A stretch of 35,065 bases of DNA from NCBI GenBank assembly GCA_013299105.1, contig JAAFJY010000005.1:151938-187002 (forward strand), written 5' to 3'. The translations under genes and the position numbers were made by a program. A model generated the notes under the pieces. The model had not been told where the DNA came from. It did not search any database and saw only the letters and a program-made list of their open reading frames with translations. Origin of the DNA: Chitinophagales bacterium (lineage in GTDB: Bacteria; Bacteroidota; Bacteroidia; Chitinophagales; Saprospiraceae). Shown here in pieces: positions 10,777 through 32,900 of this stretch. How positions within the stretch are numbered: the stretch's first letter is position 1; the number at the start of each line of letters is the position of its first letter.

Positions 10777-11298
10777 TGTAATAGAGATTTGATTTGTTGG
10801 GCCAAAGGCCTCCACTGGTTTCTTACACTAAATCGAGCACCATTAAGCACGCAGTTGATTGTTTATCAAGGTCGTATATAGAATAGAAAAAAACAAGGGA
10901 ATTACGTACATTTACAGTTTTTGGTATGCGCCTATGATGGTGCTGCTAAATTCAATGCTTCAAATGTCTTGACTCTACCGCAAATGCTTGGATGAAGACC
11001 AGACGAAACGGGCAAATCAGGAATAAGAGTGACTTAATTCGGGTCCAATCAAAATGAATCAGCATTCAGCGGCTTATATTAAGTATGCAAAAATCATTAT
11101 TTTTGAATTTATGTTGTTATACTAAATAAAACATGTTTCATCTCTAAAAAGCCCCATACACAAATTTAATTCTATGCGTTTATACTCAAAAATACTATGT
11201 TTGTATCTGAAAAACTTATGTTTATCAATTAAACGCCTATCAGCTCTTTCTATTCCTTTATAAGATAGGTTCAAAAAAGATTACAATCAAAGCAAGCC
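10777..11298. other. Divergent intergenic region between surface-protein unit and kinase array
   Basis: About 520 bp of AT-rich DNA with no credible ORF. It must hold the promoters of both the leftward surface-protein genes and the rightward kinase genes. No RNA gene or strong terminator is visible. Confidence 0.7.
11196..11203 (+). promoter_or_regulatory. Candidate Bacteroidota -7 element for the kinase array
   Basis: TATGTTTG fits the Bacteroidota sigma-factor -7 consensus TAnnTTTG and lies about 95 bp upstream of the first kinase start. No convincing TTG -33 element is seen at the usual spacing, so this is weak. Confidence 0.25.
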
Positions 11299-13440
11299 AT
11301 GAAGAACCTAGGCTCAAGCTATGCATCATTGCTGCATTGGCCCCTTAAACACTACTACCTTGGATTGTTGCTGATCCTTGCGCTGCCGCTCTTTGGCCTC
11401 GCCAAATATCCTACCTTCCACACTGGCCTCTTGCGCCAAACCTGGTACAGTAAGGACAAAAAAGTGGCGTTCACCCAGCGGATGGAAGCAGGCCTGAATT
11501 TATTATACTGGTATTCCCGCTCAACTCGGCAGGATTCTTTGTTCATCATTGCCCAGGAAATGTTGGCCGCTGGGAAACAACACAAAGATTCCGAATGGAT
11601 CGCGGAGGCTTTATATTGGATCGCCAGGTATCATTTGCATCAGGGAGACATTCAGGGTTGTATTCGGGCTACCCATGAGGCATTGCTTCAGCCAGGGTTA
11701 AAAGATTCTAAAGAAAATTATTGGTATTATGAGAATTTAGGCGATGCATATACCAATTTGGACCAATTGGACAGCGCAGCATATTATTATAAAAAGGCCC
11801 TGGTTGATGGCCAAAAAAATGGGTTGATTTACGAAAGCCTGGCCTACATTTATCAATTACAAGGAAAATACCTGGATGCGATAGATGTGTATACCAAAGT
11901 GCTCAATGAATCAAGTTTGATACACCAGTTTCATGCTAACCTAGCAATAGGGCGCATTTTTAAAACCCTGGGCTTGCACACTGAAGCCAAAGCCAATTAT
12001 CAGCAGGCCGATGTTATTTCAAAAAAAATTAACACAATAGATATACGCTTAAGAAATTATGCAGCCCAATTGGAGGTCTCTAAAAACTTGGCGGAAGCGG
12101 AACAACTCATTCAAAAAGGCTTAGCCCTCCGTGATTCTTTTGAGTCAAGCCGCCATGTACTAAGCCTGTTTTTATCAACTGGTGCCCTCTATCTCGATTC
12201 TCTCCAACTCGACCGGGCTACTGATTTTTACCAACGCGCGCTTGCACTGGCCATAAAAATCAAGGAAACTGTTTTAAAAAATGAGGCGCTGCTTGCCCTG
12301 GCAAAAATCCATCAACTGCAGGGCTTTACCCAACAATCGATGCAAATCTGCCAAGACATCAAAGCTGCACTGGAAAAAAACCATGCCCCCCGCCAGTTGG
12401 TAACCTTGTACGAAGTACTCAGTAAAAACTACGAAGCGCTCCAAAAACCTGCCCAAGCCTTGTTTTACCTGCGGCAAAAAGAAGTCCAGGAGGCCCTCCT
12501 CAACGATGAAGAAAACCTCAAAGCTGCCCTAAATACCTATATCCGGCGCAAAAGTGAAGGGGAACGCAGGGCCCTCAAACTGGCCAAAACCAATGCCGAA
12601 AAACTGGCGTTAGCTACCCAGGCCAAGGCCCAACTCAATTATAGTATTCTGGGATTGATCAGTTTGGGGCTAGTAGGAGCAGTTGGGGCTTATTACTACT
12701 TCTATCGCCAGAAAAAAAGTACGGCTGAGCACCTTGCTGTACTGAATGAGTCTCTAGAGCTGGAAAAACTAAAACTGACGAAGACCAATTCGAAACTCCG
12801 CCGCTTCAGTGGGATTGTTTCGCACGACATCCTGTCGAACCTCGACCTGATCTTGTCTGCGGGCAACGTGCTGGTGGGCACCCGGCCCAACGCTGAGAAC
12901 CTGAATAAATACTACGCGCTGACCCAAAATACCGGCCGCCAACTCAAGGACTATTGCATTGGTTTATTGGCAGAAGCCAACGCTGGTGCAGATCCCGCAG
13001 TGGCCGAAATAGGGGATCCCAATACCGTGTTGAGTAGGGTTATGGAACGCTTTGGCCCGGCATTACAAGCAAAAGGCTTTGTGGTAGAGAAAGGTGAATT
13101 GATCAGTAATCGCCTGCCCTTGTCGGTGGTAGAACAAGTGCTACAAAACCTGGTCAGCAACACCCTGCGTTACATGGGTCAAACGTCGAATCCCCTTTTA
13201 CAGATTGGTTCGGGTATTGATGCCACTGGCCATTCCTATTGGTACGTCACAGACAATGGCCCCGGCCAGGCAGAAGTAATCAATCGCGCCATTGCGGGCC
13301 AAGTCATACATTCTAGCAAAGGCCAGGGCAAGGGTTTGTATTTGTTGCAGAACACCTTACAAGACTATGGCTGGGACTTAAAGGCGGAAACGGTACAAGG
13401 AAGAGGAATTCGGATGGTGATGCGGAGCATTGGTATTTGA
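11299..13440 (+). CDS. TPR sensor histidine kinase, paralogue 1
   Basis: 713 aa. Hydrophobic N-terminal signal or anchor (about 17-35), a TPR-rich sensing region (about 90-400, repeated A..YY.KAL motifs), a transmembrane helix (about 449-469) followed by YFYRQKK, a coiled coil, a HisKA-like helix with the presumed phospho-acceptor His509 in SHDILSNLD, and a HATPase with N-box (EQVLQNLVSNTLRY), G1 box DNGPG (Asp652) and glycine-rich GQGKGLYLL. The TPR part would be periplasmic and the kinase cytoplasmic (inference from topology). It is the first of four tandem paralogues, with no response regulator in the array itself; LytTR regulators lie about 7 kb downstream and are plausible partners. From 12532 onward it is identical in DNA to paralogue 2. 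Confidence 0.93.
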   Translation: MKNLGSSYASLLHWPLKHYYLGLLLILALPLFGLAKYPTFHTGLLRQTWYSKDKKVAFTQRMEAGLNLLYWYSRSTRQDSLFIIAQEMLAAGKQHKDSEWIAEALYWIARYHLHQGDIQGCIRATHEALLQPGLKDSKENYWYYENLGDAYTNLDQLDSAAYYYKKALVDGQKNGLIYESLAYIYQLQGKYLDAIDVYTKVLNESSLIHQFHANLAIGRIFKTLGLHTEAKANYQQADVISKKINTIDIRLRNYAAQLEVSKNLAEAEQLIQKGLALRDSFESSRHVLSLFLSTGALYLDSLQLDRATDFYQRALALAIKIKETVLKNEALLALAKIHQLQGFTQQSMQICQDIKAALEKNHAPRQLVTLYEVLSKNYEALQKPAQALFYLRQKEVQEALLNDEENLKAALNTYIRRKSEGERRALKLAKTNAEKLALATQAKAQLNYSILGLISLGLVGAVGAYYYFYRQKKSTAEHLAVLNESLELEKLKLTKTNSKLRRFSGIVSHDILSNLDLILSAGNVLVGTRPNAENLNKYYALTQNTGRQLKDYCIGLLAEANAGADPAVAEIGDPNTVLSRVMERFGPALQAKGFVVEKGELISNRLPLSVVEQVLQNLVSNTLRYMGQTSNPLLQIGSGIDATGHSYWYVTDNGPGQAEVINRAIAGQVIHSSKGQGKGLYLLQNTLQDYGWDLKAETVQGRGIRMVMRSIGI

Positions 13441-13580
13441 GCTAAAATAAAGTAAACGTAAAAACTTAGCCGATAAGTTTTTACAAAAAAAACTAAAATT
13501 GAAGCAGTTCATGAAGAACCTAAGCTCAAGTTTTGCCTCATTGTGGCAGTGGCCCACTAAAGCCCACTACCTTGGATTGT
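12532..13580 (+). repeat. 1049-bp exact direct repeat, copy 1
   Basis: Identical by eye to 14765-15813 at an offset of 2233 bp. It covers the end of kinase 1 (transmembrane helix, HisKA, HATPase), the 70-bp spacer and the first 70 bp of kinase 2. Similarity breaks sharply at both ends: synonymous differences lie just before 12532 and a g/t difference at 13581. Confidence 0.93.
13433..13451 (+). repeat. Short gene-end repeat overlapping the kinase 1 stop codon
   Basis: The sequence GTATTTGAGCTAAAATAAA contains the TGA stop of kinase 1. It recurs at the end of kinase 2 (15666-15684) and, outside any ORF, at 20168 and 24654. Confidence 0.75.
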
Positions 13581-15673
13581 GGCTGATCCTTGCGCTGCCG
13601 CTCTTTGGCGTCGCGCAAGATCCTAGCCTCCACACTGGCCTCTTGCGTCAAACCTGGTATAGCAAGGACAAAAAAGTGACGTACACCCAGCGGATGGAAG
13701 CGGGCTTGGATTTATTATACTGGTATACGACCTCCACTCGGCAGGATTCTTTACACATCATTGCCCAGGAAATGCTGGTTGATGCGAAAAAACACAAAGA
13801 TCCCGAATGGACCGCGGAGGCTTTGTATTGGATTGCCAGGTATCATTTGCATCGGGGAGAAATACAGGGTTGCATCCGGGCTACCCATGAGGCATTGCTA
13901 CAGCCAGGGCTAAAAGAGTCTAAGTACATTTGTTGGTATTATGCAAATTTAGGCAATGCATATTCCAATTTGGACCAATTGGACAGCGCAGAATATTATT
14001 ATAAAAGAGCCCTTGCAGGCGGCCAAAAACATGGGCAAAATATCGAAGAGATCGGCAACCTTTACGAAAACCTGGCGTACGTTTATGAATTACAAGGAAA
14101 ATACCTGGATGCGATAGATGTATACACCAAGATGCTCAATGCAACAAGTTTGAAGCAACAGTTCTATGCCAACCTAGCAATAGGGGAACTTTTTAAAACC
14201 CTGGGCTTACACGTTGAGGTCAAAGTCAATTTCGAGCAAGCCAATGTTATTGCCAAAAAAACTACCAATATAGTGATCCGCTTAAACAATTACTCAGCTC
14301 AGTTAGCGGTCAGTAAAAACTTGGTGGAAGCGGAACGATTCATTCAAAAAGGCTTAGCCCTCAGGGACTCTTTTGATTCAAATTACGAAGTATTAACCTT
14401 ATTTTTGTCAGCTGGCGACCTATATTTGGATTCCCTCCAACTTGACCGTGCTACTGATTTTTACCAGCGCGCGCTTGCACTGGCCACAAAAATCAAGGAC
14501 ATTGGTTTGAAAAACGATGCGCTGCTTGCCCTGGCAAAAATCCATCAACTGCAGGGCCGTACCCAACAATCGATACAAATCTGCCAGGACATCAAAGCCC
14601 CATTGGAAAAAAACCGCTCCTCACGTTCCTTGGCAACCTTGTATGAAATACTCAGTAAGAACTACGAAGCGCTCCAACAACCCGTACAAGCCTTGTTTTA
14701 CCTGCGGCAAAAAGAAGCCCAGGAGGCTATTCTCAATGATGAAGAAAACATCAAAGCGGCGCTGAATACCTATATCCGGCGCAAAAGTGAAGGGGAACGC
14801 AGGGCCCTCAAACTGGCCAAAACCAATGCCGAAAAACTGGCGTTAGCTACCCAGGCCAAGGCCCAACTCAATTATAGTATTCTGGGATTGATCAGTTTGG
14901 GGCTAGTAGGAGCAGTTGGGGCTTATTACTACTTCTATCGCCAGAAAAAAAGTACGGCTGAGCACCTTGCTGTACTGAATGAGTCTCTAGAGCTGGAAAA
15001 ACTAAAACTGACGAAGACCAATTCGAAACTCCGCCGCTTCAGTGGGATTGTTTCGCACGACATCCTGTCGAACCTCGACCTGATCTTGTCTGCGGGCAAC
15101 GTGCTGGTGGGCACCCGGCCCAACGCTGAGAACCTGAATAAATACTACGCGCTGACCCAAAATACCGGCCGCCAACTCAAGGACTATTGCATTGGTTTAT
15201 TGGCAGAAGCCAACGCTGGTGCAGATCCCGCAGTGGCCGAAATAGGGGATCCCAATACCGTGTTGAGTAGGGTTATGGAACGCTTTGGCCCGGCATTACA
15301 AGCAAAAGGCTTTGTGGTAGAGAAAGGTGAATTGATCAGTAATCGCCTGCCCTTGTCGGTGGTAGAACAAGTGCTACAAAACCTGGTCAGCAACACCCTG
15401 CGTTACATGGGTCAAACGTCGAATCCCCTTTTACAGATTGGTTCGGGTATTGATGCCACTGGCCATTCCTATTGGTACGTCACAGACAATGGCCCCGGCC
15501 AGGCAGAAGTAATCAATCGCGCCATTGCGGGCCAAGTCATACATTCTAGCAAAGGCCAGGGCAAGGGTTTGTATTTGTTGCAGAACACCTTACAAGACTA
15601 TGGCTGGGACTTAAAGGCGGAAACGGTACAAGGAAGAGGAATTCGGATGGTGATGCGGAGCATTGGTATTTGA
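13511..15673 (+). CDS. TPR sensor histidine kinase, paralogue 2
   Basis: 720 aa from the ATG at 13511. A TTG at 13499 is also in frame, but the ATG aligns with the start of paralogue 1 (MKNL..S.ASL). Same layout: N-terminal hydrophobic segment ending ALPLFGVAQ, TPR region (about 95-405), transmembrane helix (about 456-476), His516 in SHDILSNLD, HATPase with Asp659 in DNGPG. The C-terminal half (from NTYIRRKSEG) is identical to paralogue 1, while the TPR half carries many substitutions and a few extra residues (KHGQNIEEIGN). It follows paralogue 1 by 70 bp, consistent with one operon. I infer different input and the same downstream partner. Confidence 0.93.
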   Translation: MKNLSSSFASLWQWPTKAHYLGLWLILALPLFGVAQDPSLHTGLLRQTWYSKDKKVTYTQRMEAGLDLLYWYTTSTRQDSLHIIAQEMLVDAKKHKDPEWTAEALYWIARYHLHRGEIQGCIRATHEALLQPGLKESKYICWYYANLGNAYSNLDQLDSAEYYYKRALAGGQKHGQNIEEIGNLYENLAYVYELQGKYLDAIDVYTKMLNATSLKQQFYANLAIGELFKTLGLHVEVKVNFEQANVIAKKTTNIVIRLNNYSAQLAVSKNLVEAERFIQKGLALRDSFDSNYEVLTLFLSAGDLYLDSLQLDRATDFYQRALALATKIKDIGLKNDALLALAKIHQLQGRTQQSIQICQDIKAPLEKNRSSRSLATLYEILSKNYEALQQPVQALFYLRQKEAQEAILNDEENIKAALNTYIRRKSEGERRALKLAKTNAEKLALATQAKAQLNYSILGLISLGLVGAVGAYYYFYRQKKSTAEHLAVLNESLELEKLKLTKTNSKLRRFSGIVSHDILSNLDLILSAGNVLVGTRPNAENLNKYYALTQNTGRQLKDYCIGLLAEANAGADPAVAEIGDPNTVLSRVMERFGPALQAKGFVVEKGELISNRLPLSVVEQVLQNLVSNTLRYMGQTSNPLLQIGSGIDATGHSYWYVTDNGPGQAEVINRAIAGQVIHSSKGQGKGLYLLQNTLQDYGWDLKAETVQGRGIRMVMRSIGI

Positions 15674-15813
15674 GCTAAAATAAAGTAAACGTAAAAACTT
15701 AGCCGATAAGTTTTTACAAAAAAAACTAAAATTGAAGCAGTTCATGAAGAACCTAAGCTCAAGTTTTGCCTCATTGTGGCAGTGGCCCACTAAAGCCCAC
15801 TACCTTGGATTGT
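14765..15813 (+). repeat. 1049-bp exact direct repeat, copy 2
   Basis: Second copy of 12532-13580. It spans the catalytic half of kinase 2, the 70-bp spacer and the first 70 bp of kinase 3. The two opposite-strand shadow ORFs inside it also translate identically in both copies, which confirms identity at DNA level. Confidence 0.93.
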
Positions 15814-17912
15814 TGCTGATCCTTGCGCTGCCGCACTTTGGCCTCGCCCAAGATGCTGCCTCTCCCTCGCTTGGCCGCTTGCGTCAAACCTGGTACAGTA
15901 AAGACAAAAAAGTAACTTACACACAGCGGATGGAAGTGGGCTTGGGATTATTATACCGGTATATAAACTCCACTCGGCAGGATTCTTTGCTCATCATTGC
16001 CCAGGAAATGCTGGCCGATGGAAAACAACACAAAGATCCCTTATGGACCGCAGAGGGTTTGTATTGGATCGCCAGGTATCAGTTGAAACAGGGAGACATT
16101 CAGAGTGCCATCCAGACTACCCAAGAGGCATTGCTACTGCCAGGGTTAAAAGATTGTGGAGATACTTATTGGTATTATACGAATCTAGGGATAGCATATA
16201 TCTCTTTGAACCAATTGGACAGCGCAGAATATTATTATAAGAAGGCCCTGGCGAGTGCCCAAAAACATGGTCTAAAGATCAAAGATTTGTTCACCATTTG
16301 CGACAACCTGGCCTACGTTTATCAACTTCAAGGAAAATACCTGGATGCGATAGGTTTATACACCATTCAGCTCAATACCGCAGATTTGGAGTTCCAGTTT
16401 TATGCTAACCTAGCGATAGCGGGCATTTTTAAAACCCTGGGCTTGCACGCTGAAGCCAAAGCCAATTATCAGCAAGCCGATTTTATTGCCCTAAAAATCA
16501 ATAGACCAGATGTCTACTTAAGAATTTATGCAGCCCAATTGAAGGTCAGTGAAAACTTGGCGGAGGCCGACCAACTCATTCAAAAAGGCTTAGCCCTCCG
16601 TGACTCTTTTGAGTCAAATCGCACTACACTGACCCTGTTTTTATCAGCTGGTGCGCTCTACCTGGATTCACTCCAACTCGACGACGCTACTGATTTTTAC
16701 CAACAAGCGCTTGCCCTGTCCATAAAAATCAAGGAAACTGTTTTAAAAAATGATGCGCTGCTTGGCCTGGCAAAAATCCATCAACTGCAGGGCCACACCC
16801 AACAGTCGATGCAAATCTGCCAAGACATCAAAGCCCCACTGGAAAAAAATCGATCCCCTCGTCACTTGGCAACCTTGTGTGAAATACTCAGTGAGAACTA
16901 TGAAGCGCTCCAACAACCTGCCCAAGCCTTGTTTTACCTGCGGCAAAAAGAAGCCCAGGAGGCCATCCTCAACGATGAAGAAAACATCAAAACAGCCCTA
17001 AATACCTACATCCGGCGCAAAAGTGAGGGGGAACGCAGGGCCCTCAAACTGGCCAAAACCAATGCCGAAAAACTGGCGGTAGCTACCCAGGCCAAGGCCC
17101 AACTCAATTACAGTATTTTAGGATTGATCAGTTTGGGGCTATTGGGGGCAGTTGGGGCTTATTCCTATTTCTATCGCCAGAAAAAAAGTACAGCTGAGCA
17201 CCTTGCTGCACTGAACCAGTCACTAGAGCTGGAAAAACTAAAGCTGATGAAGGCCAACGCCAAGCTCCGCCGCTTTAGTGATATTGTTTCGCACGACATC
17301 CTGTCTAACCTTGACCTGATCTTGTCCACTGGCAACATATTGGTTGGTGCCCGGCCCAACCCGAAAAGCCTGAACCAATATTATACGATGACCCAAACAA
17401 CTAGTCGTCAGCTCAAAGACTATTGCCTGGGACTGCTGGCGGATACCCGTTCGGCGCAAAAAGAGGACTTGGAGGCAGAAGAATGGGCTGATCCCATGCC
17501 AGTATTGCACCGGGTACTGGCGCGTTTTGGACCTGAACTCCGGGCAGTTGGAATGAAGGTTGATTTACAGGAACTCAGCCCCGCACCCCTTCCTGCGGTG
17601 TTGATGGAGCAGATTTTTCAGAATCTGGTCTCCAATGCGCTGCGTCATGGTGCCACGGCACAGCAAGCGCGGCTCGTAATTCGGGACGATAAAGACCAGC
17701 AAGGCCAAGTTCGCTGGATCATTGAAGACAATGGCCAGGGGATCACCCCGGAACGGCGCGAAACGATCTTTAACGCCATGCAGGAGCGATCCGGCTCGGG
17801 GCAACAAGTAGGACTCTCGCTGTTGCGCGCAGCTTTGCGCGAACAGGGAGCTGATATTCGGGTAGAGGCTGCTGCGGAGAGTGGGGCCCGTTGGATTGTG
17901 GCGATGCCGTAG
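15744..17912 (+). CDS. TPR sensor histidine kinase, paralogue 3 (different ATPase domain)
   Basis: 722 aa from the ATG at 15744 (an in-frame TTG lies 12 bp upstream, as in paralogue 2). N-terminus, TPR region, transmembrane helix and HisKA region with His517 in SHDILSNLD follow paralogues 1 and 2. After about 17440 the linker and HATPase differ clearly: the linker carries RSAQKEDLEAEE, the N-box region is MEQIFQNLVSNALRHG, the G1 box is EDNGQG and the glycine-rich lid is GSGQQVGLSLL. The motifs needed for ATP binding are present, so it is probably active. Its HisKA-adjacent segment (NQYYTMTQT.SRQLKDYCLG) matches paralogue 4 better than 1 or 2, a sign of segment exchange within the array. Confidence 0.92.
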   Translation: MKNLSSSFASLWQWPTKAHYLGLLLILALPHFGLAQDAASPSLGRLRQTWYSKDKKVTYTQRMEVGLGLLYRYINSTRQDSLLIIAQEMLADGKQHKDPLWTAEGLYWIARYQLKQGDIQSAIQTTQEALLLPGLKDCGDTYWYYTNLGIAYISLNQLDSAEYYYKKALASAQKHGLKIKDLFTICDNLAYVYQLQGKYLDAIGLYTIQLNTADLEFQFYANLAIAGIFKTLGLHAEAKANYQQADFIALKINRPDVYLRIYAAQLKVSENLAEADQLIQKGLALRDSFESNRTTLTLFLSAGALYLDSLQLDDATDFYQQALALSIKIKETVLKNDALLGLAKIHQLQGHTQQSMQICQDIKAPLEKNRSPRHLATLCEILSENYEALQQPAQALFYLRQKEAQEAILNDEENIKTALNTYIRRKSEGERRALKLAKTNAEKLAVATQAKAQLNYSILGLISLGLLGAVGAYSYFYRQKKSTAEHLAALNQSLELEKLKLMKANAKLRRFSDIVSHDILSNLDLILSTGNILVGARPNPKSLNQYYTMTQTTSRQLKDYCLGLLADTRSAQKEDLEAEEWADPMPVLHRVLARFGPELRAVGMKVDLQELSPAPLPAVLMEQIFQNLVSNALRHGATAQQARLVIRDDKDQQGQVRWIIEDNGQGITPERRETIFNAMQERSGSGQQVGLSLLRAALREQGADIRVEAAAESGARWIVAMP

Positions 17913-18003
17913 GGGATAAATTACAAAAATCGTCAATTGTCAAATCATCAACTCGCCCCAAGTCTGACGAACTTTTTCCCGTGTTCAAACTAACACTGTA
18001 GCC

Positions 18004-20142
18004 ATGAGTAATTGGACCAAACGACATATACAGCTATCCATTGTGTGCTTAATACTGCCCATTGCCTTCATGGTGGCGCAAAGCACCAATACCGACAGCC
18101 TTCGCAAGGTATGGCACCAACAAGGTGCCACTTTTTCCGATGCCCAGCGCCTGGAGGCAGGTTATAGTCTGATGAACTATTATAGCAAGCAGAACTACGA
18201 CTCTTTACGGTATTTTTCCGATCAAATAGAGGCTTATGGCAGGCGGAACAAGAATAAAAAATGGACGATGTATGGTTTATTTGGTAAAGCACAATTTTTT
18301 ATTCTTGAAGGTAAATTAGATTCGGCACTGCGTTGCTACTATCGGGCGCTAAAGTATAAGGATAACGAAGATGATGAGTTGATTGTAGGCATTTATAGCC
18401 ATCTAGGTAGGCAATACTACGACCTAAACCAAGAGGACAGTGCAGTTTACTACTTTACCAAAGCCATCAAGCTGGCCGACAAATATCAGCACTACACTCA
18501 TGCTGGCACGTTATTTGGTTCTTTCGGACAATACTACTATGAGCACGGCGATTACCTGAAAGCGCTCCATATGTGGAAGAGAGGTTTCAAGCACGGTAAA
18601 CCAACTCAAAAGATTGCCCGGCTCGTGAATATTGGCATGCTGCTACAAGAAATAGGATTGACGGAAGATGCCCGTATCCACTTGCAAGAGGCGCTTCGAC
18701 TGGCCAAAAACTTTGACGAAGCCCCCTCCATACAAGTCAATGTGTACAGTAATTTGCTCAAAATAGCACCCAATTGGCGTACTTTTGAACGCGAACTTAA
18801 AAAAGGCACTTTGCTGTGCGACTCATTTGGGTTGAACTATCCCAAACAACGACTCTTTGAATCAGCCGCAAAAGCATATCTCGACACCAAACAATTGCCC
18901 CAAGCTGAATATTACCTTGATCAATTGTTTAGCATGCCCTGGGTCGTAAAAACCAACCGAGGAATTGGGGCCTGGGTATTGTTGGCGCGCTTGAAACATC
19001 AAAAACACCGTTACCAGCAATCCATACAAACGTGCAATGCTATTTTTGCAAGAATTGGGGAAGCACAGTTTGTGAAAGAACGCGCAGTGGTATACAAGCT
19101 ATTGTACCAGAATTATTTGTCATTGAATAACACAGACAGTGCATTGGTGTATCTTCAGAAAAGTGTGGAGTTGGAAACGCAACTCAACGAGAAGGGGCTG
19201 ATTCGAGCGACCATTGGTGCTTATTTGAAAGAAAAAGGGAAACTAGAACAAACTGCATTGCGGCAAAGCAAAGAAATCGCAGAGCTGAAGTTGCAATCCG
19301 CACTTTCCCGCTCCCGGATGAGTAACTTGATATTTGGCTTGGTCTGCGCTTTACTATGCGCGATCGCGCTATCTACGCTTCATTTTTTTCGCCAAAAATA
19401 CCTAGTAGCGAATCGGTTAATGAGCATCAATTCCACAATGGAACAAGAACAGCAAAAACTCAAGGCGGCTAACACCAAACTCCTCCGCTTCAGTAGGGTG
19501 GTTTCACACGACATCCTGTCCAATCTGGACTTGGTCCTGTCAACAGGTAATGTACTCTTGGGCCACAAGCCCAATCCCAACTCCTTGAACCAATATTACA
19601 CGATGACCCAAACGATCAGCCGGCAGCTCAAAGACTATTGCTTGGGCTTACTGGCAGATGCAAACTCCGATCCGGGCCTGGGCGTGGCTGAAATTGCTGA
19701 CCCCAATACCGTGCTGAGCAAGGTATTGGAGCGCTTTCGCCCAGGATTACAAGCCCAAGGATTTGCGGTAGAGAAAGGTGAATTGCCCAGTAGTCGTCTA
19801 CCTTTGTCGGTCGTAGAACAAGTATTACAAAACCTCGTGAGCAACGCCCTGCGTTACATTGGTCAAACGTCAAATCCTCTTCTACAGATTGGTTCGGGTA
19901 TTGATACCACCGGCCATTTGTGTTGGTATGTCGCTGACAATGGCCCTGGGCAGGCGGAAGTGATCAATCGCGCCATTGCAGGCCAAGTCCTGCATTCTGA
20001 CAAAGGCCAAGGCAAAGGTTTGTATTTGTTGCAAAACACCTTACAAGACTATGGCTGTGGGTTAAGAGCCGAAGCGGTAGAAGGAGGAGGAATACGAATG
20101 GTGGTGTGGATGGTGATGCGGAACATTGAAGAGGAGCAATAA
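18004..20142 (+). CDS. TPR sensor histidine kinase, paralogue 4 (divergent sensor half)
   Basis: 712 aa, 91 bp after paralogue 3. It has an N-terminal hydrophobic segment (about 10-25), a TPR region with little identity to the other three (DSALRCYYRALKYKD, DSAVYYFTKAIKLAD), a transmembrane helix at about 440-460, His502 in SHDILSNLD, and a HATPase with Asp645 in DNGPG and GQGKGLYLL. The ATPase half closely resembles paralogues 1 and 2 while the segment after the phospho-acceptor resembles paralogue 3. The C-terminus adds VVWMVMRNIEEEQ. It is the last gene of the presumed operon; no clear intrinsic terminator follows. Confidence 0.92.
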   Translation: MSNWTKRHIQLSIVCLILPIAFMVAQSTNTDSLRKVWHQQGATFSDAQRLEAGYSLMNYYSKQNYDSLRYFSDQIEAYGRRNKNKKWTMYGLFGKAQFFILEGKLDSALRCYYRALKYKDNEDDELIVGIYSHLGRQYYDLNQEDSAVYYFTKAIKLADKYQHYTHAGTLFGSFGQYYYEHGDYLKALHMWKRGFKHGKPTQKIARLVNIGMLLQEIGLTEDARIHLQEALRLAKNFDEAPSIQVNVYSNLLKIAPNWRTFERELKKGTLLCDSFGLNYPKQRLFESAAKAYLDTKQLPQAEYYLDQLFSMPWVVKTNRGIGAWVLLARLKHQKHRYQQSIQTCNAIFARIGEAQFVKERAVVYKLLYQNYLSLNNTDSALVYLQKSVELETQLNEKGLIRATIGAYLKEKGKLEQTALRQSKEIAELKLQSALSRSRMSNLIFGLVCALLCAIALSTLHFFRQKYLVANRLMSINSTMEQEQQKLKAANTKLLRFSRVVSHDILSNLDLVLSTGNVLLGHKPNPNSLNQYYTMTQTISRQLKDYCLGLLADANSDPGLGVAEIADPNTVLSKVLERFRPGLQAQGFAVEKGELPSSRLPLSVVEQVLQNLVSNALRYIGQTSNPLLQIGSGIDTTGHLCWYVADNGPGQAEVINRAIAGQVLHSDKGQGKGLYLLQNTLQDYGCGLRAEAVEGGGIRMVVWMVMRNIEEEQ

Positions 20143-20167
20143 AAAATTGTTCACAAAAACTTTATAA

Positions 20168-20204
20168 GTATTTGAGCTAAAATAAACTGGACGTATTTGC
20201 TTTT
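20168..20204 (+). repeat. Dispersed gene-end repeat, extended copy
   Basis: Thirty-seven bases beginning GTATTTGAGCTAAAATAAA and continuing into TGGACGTATTTGC. A near-identical copy lies at 24654-24689. The first 19 bases also overlap the stop codons of kinases 1 and 2. Here it lies 25 bp past the kinase 4 stop. Confidence 0.75.
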
Positions 20205-20656: not shown

Positions 20657-21430
20657 ATGAACTTGAATAGCGACCTAAGAGTACTAGTGGTGGAAGACCA
20701 CCCTGGTTTCGCCCATTTGCTCCGACTGATGTTAGAAGAACTAGGTATAGTGCACATCGAAATTGCCAAAATCTACGATGAAGCCTTGTCTCTCTTTCAT
20801 AAACTAACCCCGAATATTGCCTTGGTCGATATTGAGTTAGGCGACGCTGAAAAGAACGGGATAATGCTGGTAGAAAAGATTCGCGAAACAGCACCATACT
20901 TGCCCGTTATTTATCTCTCAGCCAATTATACTGAAGATTATTACCTGCGCTGCCGCCATACCCGGCCCAGCAGTTTTATGAATAAAGAAATCTCCAGGCT
21001 CAAATTGCATCAAGCCATCGAATTGGCGATCCTCCAACTTCAATCAGTTGAAAATACGATTACCCCTTTGCTGGTTCCAGCCCTGCCTCCAGTGCATCCA
21101 CCTGTGATTAACGATACCCACTTTTTTTTCAAAGTAGGCAATCTGTATAAAAACATTGTAATAAAGGACATTGGGTTTTTCTACGCCAATGGGAAAATGA
21201 CTTTTGCCAAAGTGGATAAGCGGAATTTTCCCACTAATGTGCAGTTAAAGACCCTGGAGGATGAATTGTTCCCCAAATTTCTGCGCATTCACAAGACCTA
21301 TCTCGTCAATGTGGACCAGATTGAGTCCATCAACACCCGCGACGACAAGGTCGAGGTAATGGGAGAAAGTTTACCAATTGGTTATAGTTATCGCCAATCT
21401 TTTCTGGAACAGTTAAAGCTATTGAAGTAA
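20657..21430 (+). CDS. LytTR-family response regulator 1
   Basis: 257 aa. Residues about 5-125 are a CheY-like receiver: acidic pair Glu13-Asp14, phospho-acceptor Asp58 (ALVDIEL), Ser88 and Lys110, all in expected places. A linker of about 25 residues follows, then a LytTR DNA-binding domain (about 150-257) with the typical FLRIHKTYLVNVDQIESI core. LytTR domains bind direct repeats upstream of promoters and usually activate transcription. No kinase is adjacent, so the TPR kinases ending 515 bp upstream are the natural partners (inference). The DNA-binding half is nearly the same as in the regulator at 23512. Confidence 0.93.
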   Translation: MNLNSDLRVLVVEDHPGFAHLLRLMLEELGIVHIEIAKIYDEALSLFHKLTPNIALVDIELGDAEKNGIMLVEKIRETAPYLPVIYLSANYTEDYYLRCRHTRPSSFMNKEISRLKLHQAIELAILQLQSVENTITPLLVPALPPVHPPVINDTHFFFKVGNLYKNIVIKDIGFFYANGKMTFAKVDKRNFPTNVQLKTLEDELFPKFLRIHKTYLVNVDQIESINTRDDKVEVMGESLPIGYSYRQSFLEQLKLLK

Positions 21431-21685
21431 CAAGCGCTGGAGTTTTAGTAGTCTAAGAGTAAAAGCTTACCCTGCTCACATTTCGGCCCAAAAAGGTCAC
21501 TTTCCGCCGCCCCCTCTTCACCATTTTTTTGCGCTGATGCTGGGCATCGACTCCAAGAAATGGGCTTGATGGGACTAAAATTGTCTTCTTTCTCGTTTCT
21601 AAACCGTTGGGCTAAGTTTTTACCTTTTTTTCACCAACCCCCTAAAAACTTTGGAGAACGCGGTCAGAACAATCAAGCGAGGTGA

Positions 21686-23511: not shown

Positions 23512-24288
23512 ATGCTTTTGAAAGGACAAATCAAAGTACTAATTGTCGAAGATCAGGAGAACTTTGCCAAAATGATTCAACTGATGCTGGAAGAGCTCAA
23601 GTTGAAACAAATCTACAAGGCGCATACTATGGATCAGGCTTGGGCGCTCTTCGAAAGGGAGCGCCCAGATTTATGCCTGATTGATATTGAACTGAGCAAA
23701 AACCAGCAAGAGGGTATCATCCTTGCTGAGCAGATCCGGGAAGTGGCTCCTACATTACCAATCATTTTCCTTACCGTACACTACAATGAAGACATGTACG
23801 AACGCTGTAAGCACATCTTACCGAGTATTTTCATGAATAAGGAATTGTCGCGGCTTAATTTATACCAAGCGATTGATCTGGCACTGTTGAATACCCCATC
23901 GACCTCCTCTCCTAACTTCAAACTTGAAGAACAGCACCCGGTAGAAGAAAACCGTAGGCCTTGGATAAACAATCAACATTTTTTTTTCAAGGTTGGAGAC
24001 GTCTATAAGCGTATTGCCATTAAGGAGATTGCCTTCTTTTTTGCTAAGGGAAAAATGACTTTTGCGCGGGTAAATAAGCGGAATTTCCCCACCAATGTGC
24101 AGTTAAAAACCTTAGAGGATGAATTGTTTCCCAAATTTTTGCGCATTCACAAGACCTATCTCGTAAATGTGGACCAGATTGAATCCATCAATACCCGCGA
24201 AGATAAGATCGAGGTAATGGAGGAAAATTTACCGATTGGCTATGGTTATCGCCATTCTTTTTTGGAGCAGTTAAAGCTATTGAAGTAA
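23512..24288 (+). CDS. LytTR-family response regulator 2
   Basis: 258 aa, paralogue of the regulator at 20657. The receiver has Glu13-Asp14, Asp58 (CLIDIEL), Thr88 and Lys110, so it should be phosphorylatable. The LytTR domain (about 150-258) is almost the same as in paralogue 1: the run from RNFPTNVQL through VNVDQIESINTR is unchanged, with about 88% DNA identity there by eye, while the receiver and linker have diverged much more. The downstream DNA also looks related to that after paralogue 1 (aacaatcaagcg and tttttgtctaa tracts). I infer a gene duplication giving two inputs to one set of promoters. It lies between inverted repeats. Confidence 0.93.
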   Translation: MLLKGQIKVLIVEDQENFAKMIQLMLEELKLKQIYKAHTMDQAWALFERERPDLCLIDIELSKNQQEGIILAEQIREVAPTLPIIFLTVHYNEDMYERCKHILPSIFMNKELSRLNLYQAIDLALLNTPSTSSPNFKLEEQHPVEENRRPWINNQHFFFKVGDVYKRIAIKEIAFFFAKGKMTFARVNKRNFPTNVQLKTLEDELFPKFLRIHKTYLVNVDQIESINTREDKIEVMEENLPIGYGYRHSFLEQLKLLK

Positions 24289-24502
24289 CCCGCGCGGAGT
24301 ATTCTGAAAACTTCGGAGAAAAGCTGCCTCAACAATCAAGCGCGACTTTTTGTCTAACACCATAATTGTCGCGTTCTTTAAGTTCCTATAATTATCTTCC
24401 CTACTAATTGGCAGAAGTGAATAGGCATAAAGGATTGACATGCTGAACGCTTCAATTCAAAAACTCACTCTCGACGGTTTTGCGAACTTATAACGGTTCA
24501 AA

Positions 24503-26917: not shown

Positions 26918-29900
26918 TCACTTCGTCAACACCACCATTTTCTTAATAGCAGTAAAATCTTCTGTTTCCAGCGTGTAATACAAGACTCCACTTGCTTTCA
27001 ACTCCTGCTTCGTCAACCTCACCTGGTTCACACCCTTGGCATAATCACCCTGGGTGCGGAAGATCAAAGCTCCCTTCACATCGCGGATGGTCAAAGTGGC
27101 ACTTGCTGCCTTGGGCAGGTAGAAGCCAATCAACGTCTCCTCCGCAAAGGGGTTGGGTTGGTTTTGTTCCAGGCGAGCCTGGTCATTTGAGATGCCTTTG
27201 TTATAAGACAGCTTCAGGTCCATGACTTCGTTACCTGTAACGTCACCCAAACCATAAGCTTCCTGTGCAGTCAAACGGCTGGTAATGTTCAACACTTCAC
27301 TCAGCGCATGGTCTTTCGTAGCGCGCAGCTTCAGCGTAAACAAACCTTCTGTACTGGCTACTTCCGAGCCGGAACCTCCTGAGGAGGTATTCCAGCTTGC
27401 AGTAATCATACCTTGCTTAGCAAACACACCCAGGTTCTCAGCCTTGAGTATACCATAGTCAATGCCCACGATCTCGGCATTTTCTACTCCCAGCGTGAAC
27501 TGGAAGCCCTGGACTTTTTGCAAATCCTTCGCTTTGATCAACACGTCGTAGATCTGACCTGCCTTCATTTCCTGCTCATCTGTTTGGAGGATAAAGTCCT
27601 TACCAGAGCGCACTTCGCTGCTCGTCACACCGGGGATCGTCGCGGCATTGCCGTTCACATCGCCCATTTTGATGGCGATGAAGTCTGCTTGTACCTTGCC
27701 TTCCAAGTCGTTCACGTTCACGATGGCTGGAATTTCGTTCCTCCAAGGATTGCGTTCGTCTTCAAACTTGTGCTTGGCATCCACAAACTTCCAGCTTGGG
27801 CTTGACTTGAAGCTTTCGTCGATGTTCAGGATCAACTTACGGATTTGGATCAAGTCGAGCGTCGTGATTGTTTTAGAACCATTCACATCCGCTGCAATCA
27901 TCCGGTAAGGGTTGCTCAATACCTGGATACCCAAAATGTGCTTCTGGATCAGGATCAAGTCGAAGGTAGATACCCCATTGCGGTGTTCTTTGTCCAACTG
28001 TGGCGTAATTGTAAAGTCACCTCCTTTCAGCAGGCTATTGAAGCCGTACAAACCACTATTTGGTGTCGTACCCTTGTCTTGCTTGTCACCACTGATCGCT
28101 ACTTCTACGCTAGCCACTGGCTTGGCGTCGTCGGTAGCAATCAAACCGTTGATCTCGCCTTCATTCGTTGTTCCTGTTCCACCACTTGGGCATACCTTGC
28201 GGTTGTCTTGGATTTCGATGAAGGTTACACAGAAGTCGTGGTTGCCCTTTTCATCCCATGCGTGGATTTCTACGTTGATCACCTTGCCCTTGTCGGCACA
28301 AGTGAAGGTCAAGCCCGTTTGGTCGTCCTTCACTGGCTGGCCTACCCGGTTGATCGAGTACTTGGTCACCAGCTTCAAGCCTGCCTGGGTTTCTGGTCCC
28401 TGGCCGTTGCAATCGTAGATCTTCGAGGCAATGAAGTCATTGGCCCATACTGCCATCATGCCACCACCGTTGCCATCAGGTTGTACAACCGGCATCAACT
28501 CAGTTGACAAGCCATTGATACAGATCGGAGCGGGAGCCTTGCAGTCGCGTACCAGGAATGGGATCCTGGTTGGACGGGTCAGGTTGCCACACTCGTCTCT
28601 CACCACCACGATCAGGTCATGCAGACCCTCTGGTAGATTGGTGACAGATACTGCCATCTTGCCTTTGCCATCATCCTCGAATGAGAAGATGAAGTCGCGG
28701 CTGTTGGACATGATGTAGGGCCCGGTCAGGGTCTGGAAGGGGGCCACCATCACCTGGGTTCTTTCTAGTTCTAACCTATCAGTACAGTTATCGGTAGCGG
28801 TGAACGGAATCTTCACATTGGCTACACAAGTCGTTGGGTTCGTACAGAACGTATCGCGCTTGAAGCTGATTACCGGTGCCACATCGTCGTACACCTTGAT
28901 GATCTGTGTGTACATGAACGAGTGGAAGTATTCACCATTCAAGTTACAGCTTGGTGGCGTGATCTGCTCATCGTTCTGAGCCGTAACATTTGGTATTGGG
29001 GTTACCCTTCCATCAGCCAAGTTGCCTTCCTTCGGTGTGCGGTTGCGCGACAGGTAGAATTCCTCGTCTCCGTCGCGGTCTTCGTCACGTACCAAGAGCC
29101 ATACTGGCAAAGTGCCGTTTTCGGTCCACTTGCGGTCCACGATGTACACATTGCCTGCGGCCATTGGGTCGCCACACTTGTCTTCGTAGGCACACCAGTT
29201 GATCACGGTATAAGTACGGAAGATTTTGTAGCACTCATTGTTAGATGCTTCGTAACGCTTGTCGGTGATGTTAACCGCCAGGATGTCGCAGAAGCGCTCG
29301 TCCGTGATCAGGGTGTCGATCACTGGAGTTTTGCAGTCGCGGCGGTCCACATCCACTGGGAAGCGGATGTCGTATTCGTGTATCGGGCGGATCGTGATGA
29401 TCTGCTTGCATTCGGTCGTCAAGTTGCCTTTGGCAGTCTTTTTGGTGATCGTCCAGATGCGTTCGATCGTGCCATAACCACACTTCAACTTCTTCACCAC
29501 TGCATAGCTAGTATCCAGCACCCCGCAGTCATTGCCGGAAGTGATGCGTACATCACCAAAGGCCAAGGCTGATTGGGTTTTGCTGTCGATTGTACCCAGG
29601 TTCTTGTTGTCGCAGTCGATCGTGATGTCCTCTGGTGCCAGGCACTGAGGCGCAATCTTGTCTTCCAGGCTGATGGTCATCCAGCAGAAGTTGCGGTTGT
29701 TACTCCAGTCTTCACCCCACAGCTCAATCGTTACCTCTGCGGATACATCGCAGCAGAAGAACTCAATGGCATCTGCCAGCGGAGTCATCCATTTGCCATT
29801 CACCAGCTCAAAGCCGTCTTTGTCGTCCAACTCGCCGTCGCCATTCAGGTCGTAACCCTTGGCAATCAGGTCATTTTTGCAATCGGCATTGTAGCTGCGG

Positions 29901-32900
29901 CGCACCTTGATCCACTTCAGTTCACAGTTGTCAAAGCTGCCCTCGTCAATGTCTTTCGCTGTTACTCTTGCGTAGCCGTTCAAGTAACCTGCTGCGTTGG
30001 ACAGGCTCACCGTCAACTTGTCATCGCACTTCATCACGGGTGCAATCTTGTCCACCACGTCGAACTCAAACGAGTCGCGCTTGGCGTTGTAGCAGCCATC
30101 GAAGGCGTCGATGATGATCCGGTGACGACCTACGGGCAGGCCACTCATTACACCGTTCATCACGGGGTAAGTGACTTCCTCCCATACGTTCTGGGCGATG
30201 ATGATGCCCTTCACGATCCGGTCGCGCGTCTTAACTCGAATGGATACATTGGCCAGCGTACAGTTGTCGCTGATGTCAATGCCCATTTCCGTCTTCAGGC
30301 GGGCAGCCGTCGTGGGAATTGATGCTGTGCAGTTCATTGGGCCAGTAGATACCGTAATTGGCGTCTTGGCCGTAATCGTTGGTGCTTTGAAGTCGCCAAT
30401 CTTGATCAGTACATGCAGCGTATCAATGATGCCACCTTTGCACCAGTCGAAAATGTAAATCTCCCGGTCGATCTTCACCCCTTTGCCTTCGCACACTGGG
30501 AACTCGGTGTCTTTGATCTGTACCGAGTAGTTGCATTCAACTTCGTCCAGGTACAAAATGCGCTCCAGTTTTGGGTCCGTCAAGTTGTGGAAGGTTGAGG
30601 CGAGGCGAGGCATCCAGTCTTCTTTCTTGATCAAAGACTTGTCAGCCGTACAAGCTTGGTATTCCACCACTTGGTCGTACTTCCCGCTTGGGTTTGGATT
30701 CTTCCACGCAAAGTCGCTGACTTTTGGACGGTACAGGTTAATCACTTGTACCGTGTCTTTGGTCATGCCATTGCACTGGGAAATACCCGTCCAGGTCCGG
30801 AAGATGCGACCCCACAGGCCGTTCTTGCTGATTGAATCACAGCCATAAGTCACCAGGCGGTCTACCCACTTCACGCTCACGGCGCAGTTGCAGGCTTCAA
30901 ACTTAGCAAAACCCAAGTTGCGTACTTCATCAGCCACCGTGCGGCCAAAGCTCAGGATCGTATGACCAGGCGTGTTGTCCGCCAAACTTTGTGGGAAACT
31001 GGCGCGGGTATTTGTCCGACCAACCGTCTTGGGGTTGTTCAGCACGAAGTTCGCGTCGAAGCAGTACACATTTTGTGGTCCCAGTTCACCTTCTACAAAG
31101 GCAGGCCGCTGCTTGTCTTCAACCTTGATCCAGCCCCAGCAGAACGCGTCAGGACATCCCTTGCGCTTGATCATGTAGCGGATGTTCTTGCCAGCTTCGG
31201 CTTGGGTAATGATGTTATCGGGCAGGGCCTTGCCGTCTGCTCCTTCTACATACAATTCCCAACCGGCAATCGTTGGATAATCGCGGGTACCGGATAGTAC
31301 TGTTCTTGGGTCGAGCTTGTGTTCACAGTTCGCATCCAAGCCCACAATCACCCATTCGATGCAAGCAATCGGCGCACACAAGCGGTAGCCTGCGTCCAGC
31401 GTCGTATCTCGGTCTGGCGTCAATCCTCCAAACAGGAAGGCAGTCGGATTCGTAGTCATCGCCGCACTTGGGTTCCAAGGATTGATGTCCGAGTCAACTC
31501 CATCGTTTGAACCTACATTTGGTTCGGTCGCTGAGTACAACTGGCCATTGGTAGCGGTACCTACGTTGAAGATCACGTGGTAGATCCCAGGAACCAAGCT
31601 GTCCAGTACATACAAGCCGTTCGCATCCGTCAATACTGGCTTCATCGGGTTGCCATAGGCATCCGTCACCACCGCTGTCGTATCGCCTGTTACTGGGTCA
31701 ACCCTTACGATTTTAACCGTTACATTGGCAATCCCTGGTTCGCCGGGGTCTTGCAAGCCGTTGCCGTTCTTGTCATCCCAGACAAAGTTGCCTACGCTTA
31801 CTGGTTTGTACAAACCAAAGTCAACCGTAGTATTTCTAGTCGTTGCAGTATTGTTATCAACAACATTGTTTCCCGCAGCTCCTGTGGATCCAGCTGATAA
31901 TGTTACGATGCCACTGGTCACAATCTGACCTATACGAGTACCATCATCATTATCAGTATTGTCGTCCGGATCAGCCGCAGGTTCATTTGGGCCTACTCCC
32001 TGACCTGCCGTACCGGAAGAGGACGCAAAGCCTGTTGGCAGATCAATCTCTACCCGGTAGTCACCGTCAGGCAAGCCCTGGAACAGGTAAGTACCCGTGT
32101 TGGTCACTATACCACCTACTGCGTCATCTGGAGTACCCAGTACGCCATCAGGTCCTACTGGCACCTCGTTGCCTGCACCATCGTACAAGCGTACCGTTAC
32201 GGGTACTGCCGCAAGTGCTGCTTCCGAACCATCTTTGACGCCATTGTTGTTGGCGTCCACAAAGATTTCGTTGCCCAAGCTGTTGTGGTAGAAACCAAAG
32301 TCCAGGGTCTCATTCGTCAGGTTGTCTGGCAGCGGGTTGGGTATCGTACTTGGCGTTGGATCAGGTTCACCAGTTGGTTCAAATGGGAACAAGGTGATTG
32401 GCTTGCTCACCACCGCACCTACAAAAGCTCCGGTTCCTGCTACCCCATTGTCGTCGTTGTCCGTATTGTTGTCTGGGTCGCTTTGGTTGGCGTCCGTGCC
32501 ATCAATATTTGAGCCACTTGACTTGTAGGCATACAGCGGATCACTTGGATCGTCGAAGTTTTCCTTCGGCAGCACCACAAAGTAATCACCGGGCACAAGC
32601 AAGGTAAACAGATAGTAACCGCCATCCTGCGTTACAAAAGTATCTACTGGCAATCCAGTCGCTACACTGTACAGAATTACCGTTACACCATTTACACCTA
32701 GTTCTCCAGCATCCCGTACGCCATCGTTGTCTGTATCCAACCAGATGCGGTTGCCCAGGCTCAAGCCACGGCTGATGCCGAAATCAACGGTGTTGTCGAA
32801 CGTACCTTCGCTTGGCGTATCGTTATTGAGTTGTAAGCCACCGGCTGGTTCATCACTATATACCAATGCAATCGGACCCGAACTGATGCCGCCACTTGGG

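Follow-up and report, generated by a model that had tools for sequence, protein, structure and literature searches.

Conflicting histories of the two halves of tandem TPR histidine kinases and downstream LytTR regulators in a Chitinophagales genome

In a Chitinophagales bacterium, an array of four kinases, K1 to K4, lies in one direction and is followed by two receiver-LytTR regulators, RR1 and RR2. Likelihood tests reject a common history for the sensor and catalytic halves of the kinases. From sequence comparison, the array was probably grown by older duplication and then reshaped by recurrent gene conversion of its output ends, with the TPR sensors diverging. The window, i.e., the whole 35,065-nucleotide stretch of DNA analysed, is part of contig C45 (310,903 bp) in a draft genome of 7.67 Mb in 77 contigs. 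All coordinates below are on its forward strand.

K1 (11299-13440) encodes 713 aa and K2 (13511-15673) encodes 720 aa from the ATG at 13511, in an ORF open from the TTG at 13499. Both matched the Pfam models TPR_12 (5.4e-13 and 8.6e-14, respectively) and HATPase_c (1.5e-6 and 1.3e-6). K3 (15744-17912; HATPase_c, 1.2e-16) and K4 (18004-20142) complete the array; tblastn at E 0.01 gave no match to kinase remnants in the window outside 11200-20200. In all four proteins TPR is N-terminal to HATPase_c, with TPR models and HATPase_c above the curated cut-offs, as in TPR-sensor histidine kinases. Read by eye, the architecture is an N-terminal hydrophobic segment, a TPR sensor, a membrane helix and a kinase, and kinase function is predicted from that architecture. 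At E 0.001 no DHp model matched any of the four; the stretch V-SHDILSNLDL, a candidate H-box, is invariant in all of them and lies ahead of the ATPase, where the structure model has low confidence. The model of K2 (mean pLDDT 66.6) is useful for the TPR part only, with pLDDT there mostly 70-94 and the remainder poor.

A preliminary description of this DNA had reported an exact 1049-bp match between 12532-13580 and 14765-15813 and had placed the catalytic half of one kinase, the spacer and the start of the next in each copy; both statements hold. In the given sequence the two segments are an exact direct repeat with an offset of 2233, maximal at both ends, the nearest mismatches being at 12531 and 13581. 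The repeat is the longest exact direct repeat in the window, the next longest found with seeds of 25 bases being 51 bp. Copy 1 runs from residue 412 of K1 through codon 23 of K2: the K1 connector helix, TM, DHp, ATPase and stop come first, followed by a 70-bp spacer and codons 1-23 of K2. Copy 2 spans the corresponding stretch of the next pair, from the K2 connector helix across the spacer between K2 and K3 to codon 23 of K3. The repeat start (K1 residue 412, K2 residue 419) is directly past the last modelled TPR helix, within a long helix that spans K2 residues 410-475 in the structure model, with confidence below 70 beyond about residue 430. When the best 40 of 317 candidates in the same genome were scored, two of the 25 repeat matches were full length, and these were the two window copies.

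In the ungapped flank 11835-12531 (697 positions), K1 and K2 differ at 16.9%, and at that rate the chance of zero differences in 1049 bp is about 10^-84. The reported divergence of the TPR halves was likewise borne out, with dS values of 0.37 for K1-K2 (84.9% DNA identity) and 0.40 for K2-K3. Across the coil/TM/DHp and ATPase segments, 0 of approximately 208 silent sites (about 100 and 108, respectively) differ between K1 and K2. The other 1184 bp of the 2233-bp unit (13581-14764) are 84.4% identical to K1 (982/1163) and 80.8% identical to K3 (957/1184), with synonymous differences among the changes.

The kinases of sister genomes, G3a, G3b, G4n and G4c, were included in comparisons of the halves. 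In the TPR part, K1, K2, K3, G3a and G4n are mutually 73.2-84.9% identical, and K4 and G3b are 42-50% identical to these five (K4-K1, 43.5%). In the ATPase part, K1 equals K2, K4 is 81.2% identical to both, and G3a, G3b and G4c are 67.1-67.7% identical to K1. Thus K4 carries a diverged TPR part and a K1/K2-type ATPase; by blastn within the window, K4 19477-20110 is in common with K1 12793-13426 and K2 15026-15659 at 80.0% over 635 aligned positions. For K1-K4, synonymous sites are saturated in the TPR part and dS is 0.61 in the ATPase part. K1 and G3a, a TPR-type pair, show the reverse, with dS values of 0.65 in the TPR part and 2.43 in the ATPase part. G3a and G3b are 47.1% identical in the TPR part and 81.0% in the ATPase part.

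With the catalytic data, three of five topologies, those grouping by TPR type, were rejected (delta lnL 80-82, AU at most 9.3e-5), and the two grouping K1, K2 and K4 were not; with the TPR data, grouping by genome was the most strongly rejected of four topologies (delta lnL 41.8, AU 1.7e-4), the likelihood differences of 80-82 and 41.8 being the safer statement since very small AU values are numerically unstable. The TPR data also weakly rejected a topology with K4 and G3b as sisters (AU 0.043). In free trees the clade of K1, K2 and K4 had an SH-aLRT of 100 and UFBoot values of 95 and 98. The TPR parts of K1, K2 and K3 formed one clade within their own genome (SH-aLRT 99.5, UFBoot 94), which supports an older tandem duplication of these three genes. 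The TPR parts were not wholly spared, partition sites among K1-K3 being mildly clustered (147 of 10000 shuffles were equally clustered). In the window genome, paralogs are closer to each other than to orthologs over a portion of the gene, synonymous sites included, as in concerted evolution. Because G3a, G3b and G4c are not one clade in the free catalytic trees (branch UFBoot 47-86), we claim within-genome homogenisation firmly for the window genome alone; for the sister genomes it is suggested.

K3 is a mosaic by sliding identity, with a K1/K2-type TPR and membrane part, a late DHp stretch closest to K4, and an ATPase of another type. Within the TPR part, 25-codon windows give 77-93% identity to K1; over alignment columns 430 to 538, 18-codon windows give 81-98%. 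At columns 562-568 K3 is nearest to K4 (78-87%) vs 67-72% to K1, and at 574 K4 and G3a tie. The ATPase end of K3 (17430-17912, the start being approximate) has 89.5% DNA identity to a partial kinase on contig C706 of the sister genome G001, and 44-50% identity to the seven other ATPase parts compared; this ATPase type exists, then, in a second genome. The G001 contig ends at the very start of the ATPase part, so that it gives no independent confirmation of the K3 join. The retention of a different ATPase domain by K3 counts against the conversion account. The earlier suggestion that sensors are swapped onto catalytic domains is supported, as history, in K3 and K4.

The two regulators, RR1 (20657-21430; Response_reg 1.3e-17, LytTR 2.8e-14) and RR2 (23512-24288; Response_reg 7.1e-18, LytTR 6.3e-14), both have receiver and LytTR domains and are classed as LytTR response regulators. 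Their receivers share 56% identity and their LytTR parts 84%; in the sister genomes RR1-RR2 identity in the LytTR part is 69% (G003), 69% (G004) and 74% (G001). The 3' tract of RR1, in its LytTR half (21191-21443), is 87.4% identical to RR2 24048-24300. With the receiver data, both topologies joining RR1 and RR2 of the window genome were rejected (delta lnL 102-104), and with data from the end of the LytTR half both orthology topologies were rejected (delta lnL 55-82). The tests on the two ends conflict strongly, and one shared history of the receiver and DNA-binding halves is rejected. Since RR2 carries the RR1-like end, RR1 is the likely donor and RR2 24048-24300 the putative recipient tract, as identity and the topology tests suggest.

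We searched 60 genomes, one per species and the window genome included, and at E 1e-30 found matches in four, namely the window genome and three of the four others of the same genus. The fourth, G002 (4 contigs), had no match at that threshold and just two weak ones, with E values from 1e-9 to 1e-10, in the catalytic part of K3. G003 has a tandem pair of kinases and two regulators. G001 carries a complete kinase on one contig and the partial kinase at the end of another; a search for a further copy at its broken contig ends matched the query contig alone (17/17 candidates scored). In G004 a single kinase is split across two contigs that overlap exactly by 119 bp at their ends, and the same search, with the best 40 of 53 candidates scored, matched just those two known ends. 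The 119-bp overlap fits a graph break at a repeat and is no proof of a second copy.

The K1-K2 spacer contains a hairpin with an 11-bp stem (13458-13484), 26 bases ahead of the K2 ATG; its sequence recurs unchanged in the K2-K3 spacer (15691-15717). A 91-base fold of 13430-13520 had a z of -2.7, and 3 of 200 shuffles were as stable; that the hairpin is a terminator or attenuator is a guess. A MITE-like dispersed intergenic element of about 130-135 bp with imperfect inverted ends starts at about 20168 and about 24654, and its left ends are also found in the spacers at 13436 and 15669; the K1 and K2 stop codons are inside the element (17 sites were compared, several of them truncated). The window genome has 202 occurrences of the element's 15-base core (99 in forward and 103 in reverse orientation, against 0 for a reversed control); G003 and G004 have one each, and G001, G002, G005 and G007 none. 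Nearby genes code for large repeat proteins of the SprB, cadherin-like and SdrD_B kinds, and one of these proteins has a type IX sorting tail that scores under the curated cut-off; upstream of the locus lie an SdrD_B gene in G003 and SprB and sorting-tail genes in G004. Control of such repeat-protein genes by RR1 and RR2 would be a guess. An SdrD_B-repeat gene of the window (26918-35065) has two overlapping exact tracts, 27061-28531 (1471 bp) and 28008-29470 (1463 bp), which match C45 199047-200517 and 133681-135143, respectively, with identity outside fading within distances of a few hundred bases up to about 1 kb. These tracts may be due to either conversion or assembly.

The exact identity of the kinase repeat might come from a short-read assembly graph in which two similar copies were collapsed to one consensus and the loop was walked twice, or the copy number guessed. 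Two 10-N gaps bound the window exactly (at 1 and 35065), each flanked by an exact 127-bp duplication, as SPAdes with k=127 would leave; we presume that assembler and setting from its usual habits. The 1049-bp tract exceeds what usual short-insert pairs bridge, and the same contig has three other exact direct repeats of more than 1 kb (1471, 1463 and 1048 bp). Collapsing of bulges has been described for metaSPAdes (PMC8021871). Because assemblers of this kind can lose sparse differences when copies are merged, the identity of the tract may be overstated and its copy number is unproven. However, the left flank stayed separate at 16.9% difference, and a tract equally diverged is unlikely to collapse in full. 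The assembly also ran through the 1.47-kb repeats, which lie 20 and 46 kb apart, suggesting long-range data or else the same fault. A search for 16S rRNA, meant to tell the type of assembly, was positive in 0/5 genomes, the 4-contig G002 included, and in just 9/14 controls. Collapse cannot make the K4 and RR1/RR2 tracts at 80-87% identity, and the K4 and regulator results are independent of the assembly caveat. The artefact that the preliminary description had allowed for stays credible for the exact identity and copy number, given the k=127-like gap duplications, and fails for the K4 and regulator tracts; as an account of the locus we consider it unlikely.

That description had also offered gene conversion or unequal crossing-over with a 2233-bp unit. 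Of these, conversion is well supported, by the same modular mosaicism in K4, K3 and RR1/RR2. A single fresh 2233-bp duplication is disfavoured because the whole unit would then be identical, and only 1049 of 2233 bp are, the remainder being at 81-84%. A recent duplication of this unit followed by replacement of the K2 TPR segment, by import or conversion from elsewhere, would yield the same sequence, and K1-K3 are, by their TPR parts, tandem duplicates within the lineage of this genome. This order nevertheless requires two events instead of one, and the K2 TPR part groups with that of K1 (SH-aLRT 99.5, UFBoot 98), so that the donor would be a close relative now absent from the array; from K4, moreover, it is clear that catalytic ends pass from gene to gene. 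We hold this order to be quite improbable. An explanation free of recombination, with strong purifying selection on the catalytic domains and fast sensors, might draw on the K1-G3a dN values, which at 0.263 in the TPR part are slightly above those in the ATPase (0.236) and coil/TM/DHp (0.194) parts. But the silent-site identity of K1 and K2 against a dS of 0.37 in the TPR part speaks against selection on protein alone, the spacer is identical as well, and the half-gene trees conflict, leaving this explanation next to no probability.

By the favoured account, conversion after an older tandem duplication, the output end (membrane helix, DHp and ATPase) would have been copied between neighbouring kinases while the TPR ends went on diverging. 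The 1049-bp identity would be the latest tract and the youngest of several partial homogenisations, one that also took in the spacer and the signal peptide of the next gene; the same process would have acted on the DNA-binding ends of the LytTR regulators downstream. The genes are mosaics, their halves have conflicting histories and the tract has zero synonymous change; homologous recombination between neighbours would be the simplest conversion process. Several sensors may thereby stay coupled to a single phosphotransfer surface and a single DNA target; the receivers' 56% identity does not fit simply with a single shared phosphotransfer partner. More tentatively, the locus could be a self-tuning hub, in which conversion holds the outputs of the two layers, the catalytic domain of the kinases and the DNA-binding domain of the regulators, in common while sensors duplicate, diverge and re-attach, recruiting new inputs to one response. 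In such a hub the identical 1049-bp copies should also allow measurable gain or loss of the K2 sensor. Two-component pathways are usually described as evolving by duplication, then insulation of the kinase-regulator interface. Here the sensors diversify while the paralogs seem to be held together at their catalytic and DNA-binding ends, which would make the locus a natural example of many inputs feeding common outputs.

Among the matches listed in a literature search on conversion in histidine kinases and receptors, no title or abstract start mentions converted kinase catalytic ends, and the available part of PMC8895600 makes no mention of conversion. In Salmonella, conversion between tufA and tufB was measured over the 1185-bp gene, and there too tracts pass between two copies, modelled via RecA strand invasion; unlike the kinases, the tuf copies are near-identical (12 differences) and the process involves the whole gene and is not modular (PMC5485169). 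Recurrent conversion towards the 3' end of a two-component regulator gene is described for Ehrlichia ruminantium ntrX, but with an inverted partial duplicate as the source, an inactivating event and no sensor/output split (PMC9937504). Long-lasting concerted evolution of 26 prokaryotic genes, with paralogs closer than orthologs as here, was attributed to recurrent gene conversion, in a study whose main text, as far as available, lacks the terms "histidine kinase" and "two-component" (PMC6053082). In myxobacterial two-component systems sensor and output domains swap partners, as in our array; direct shuffling is called rare there and loss then gain is preferred, whereas the kinase array supports exchange between neighbouring genes (PMC4603909). 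Comparable too are the Campylobacter jejuni receptor paralogs Tlp2, Tlp3 and Tlp4, with identical signalling domains, sensory regions of about 30% identity, and a signalling-domain tree that largely mirrors the genome tree while the sensory tree has another topology (PMC9769880). These are chemoreceptors, and "gene conversion" occurs once in the portion of that paper available, meaning loss to a pseudogene (PMC9769880). In sum, modular concerted evolution of the array is well supported and similar in kind to the identical signalling domains of those chemoreceptor paralogs (PMC9769880), but in the kinase locus the downstream regulators share the pattern, and its presence in regulators as well as histidine kinases is more unusual.
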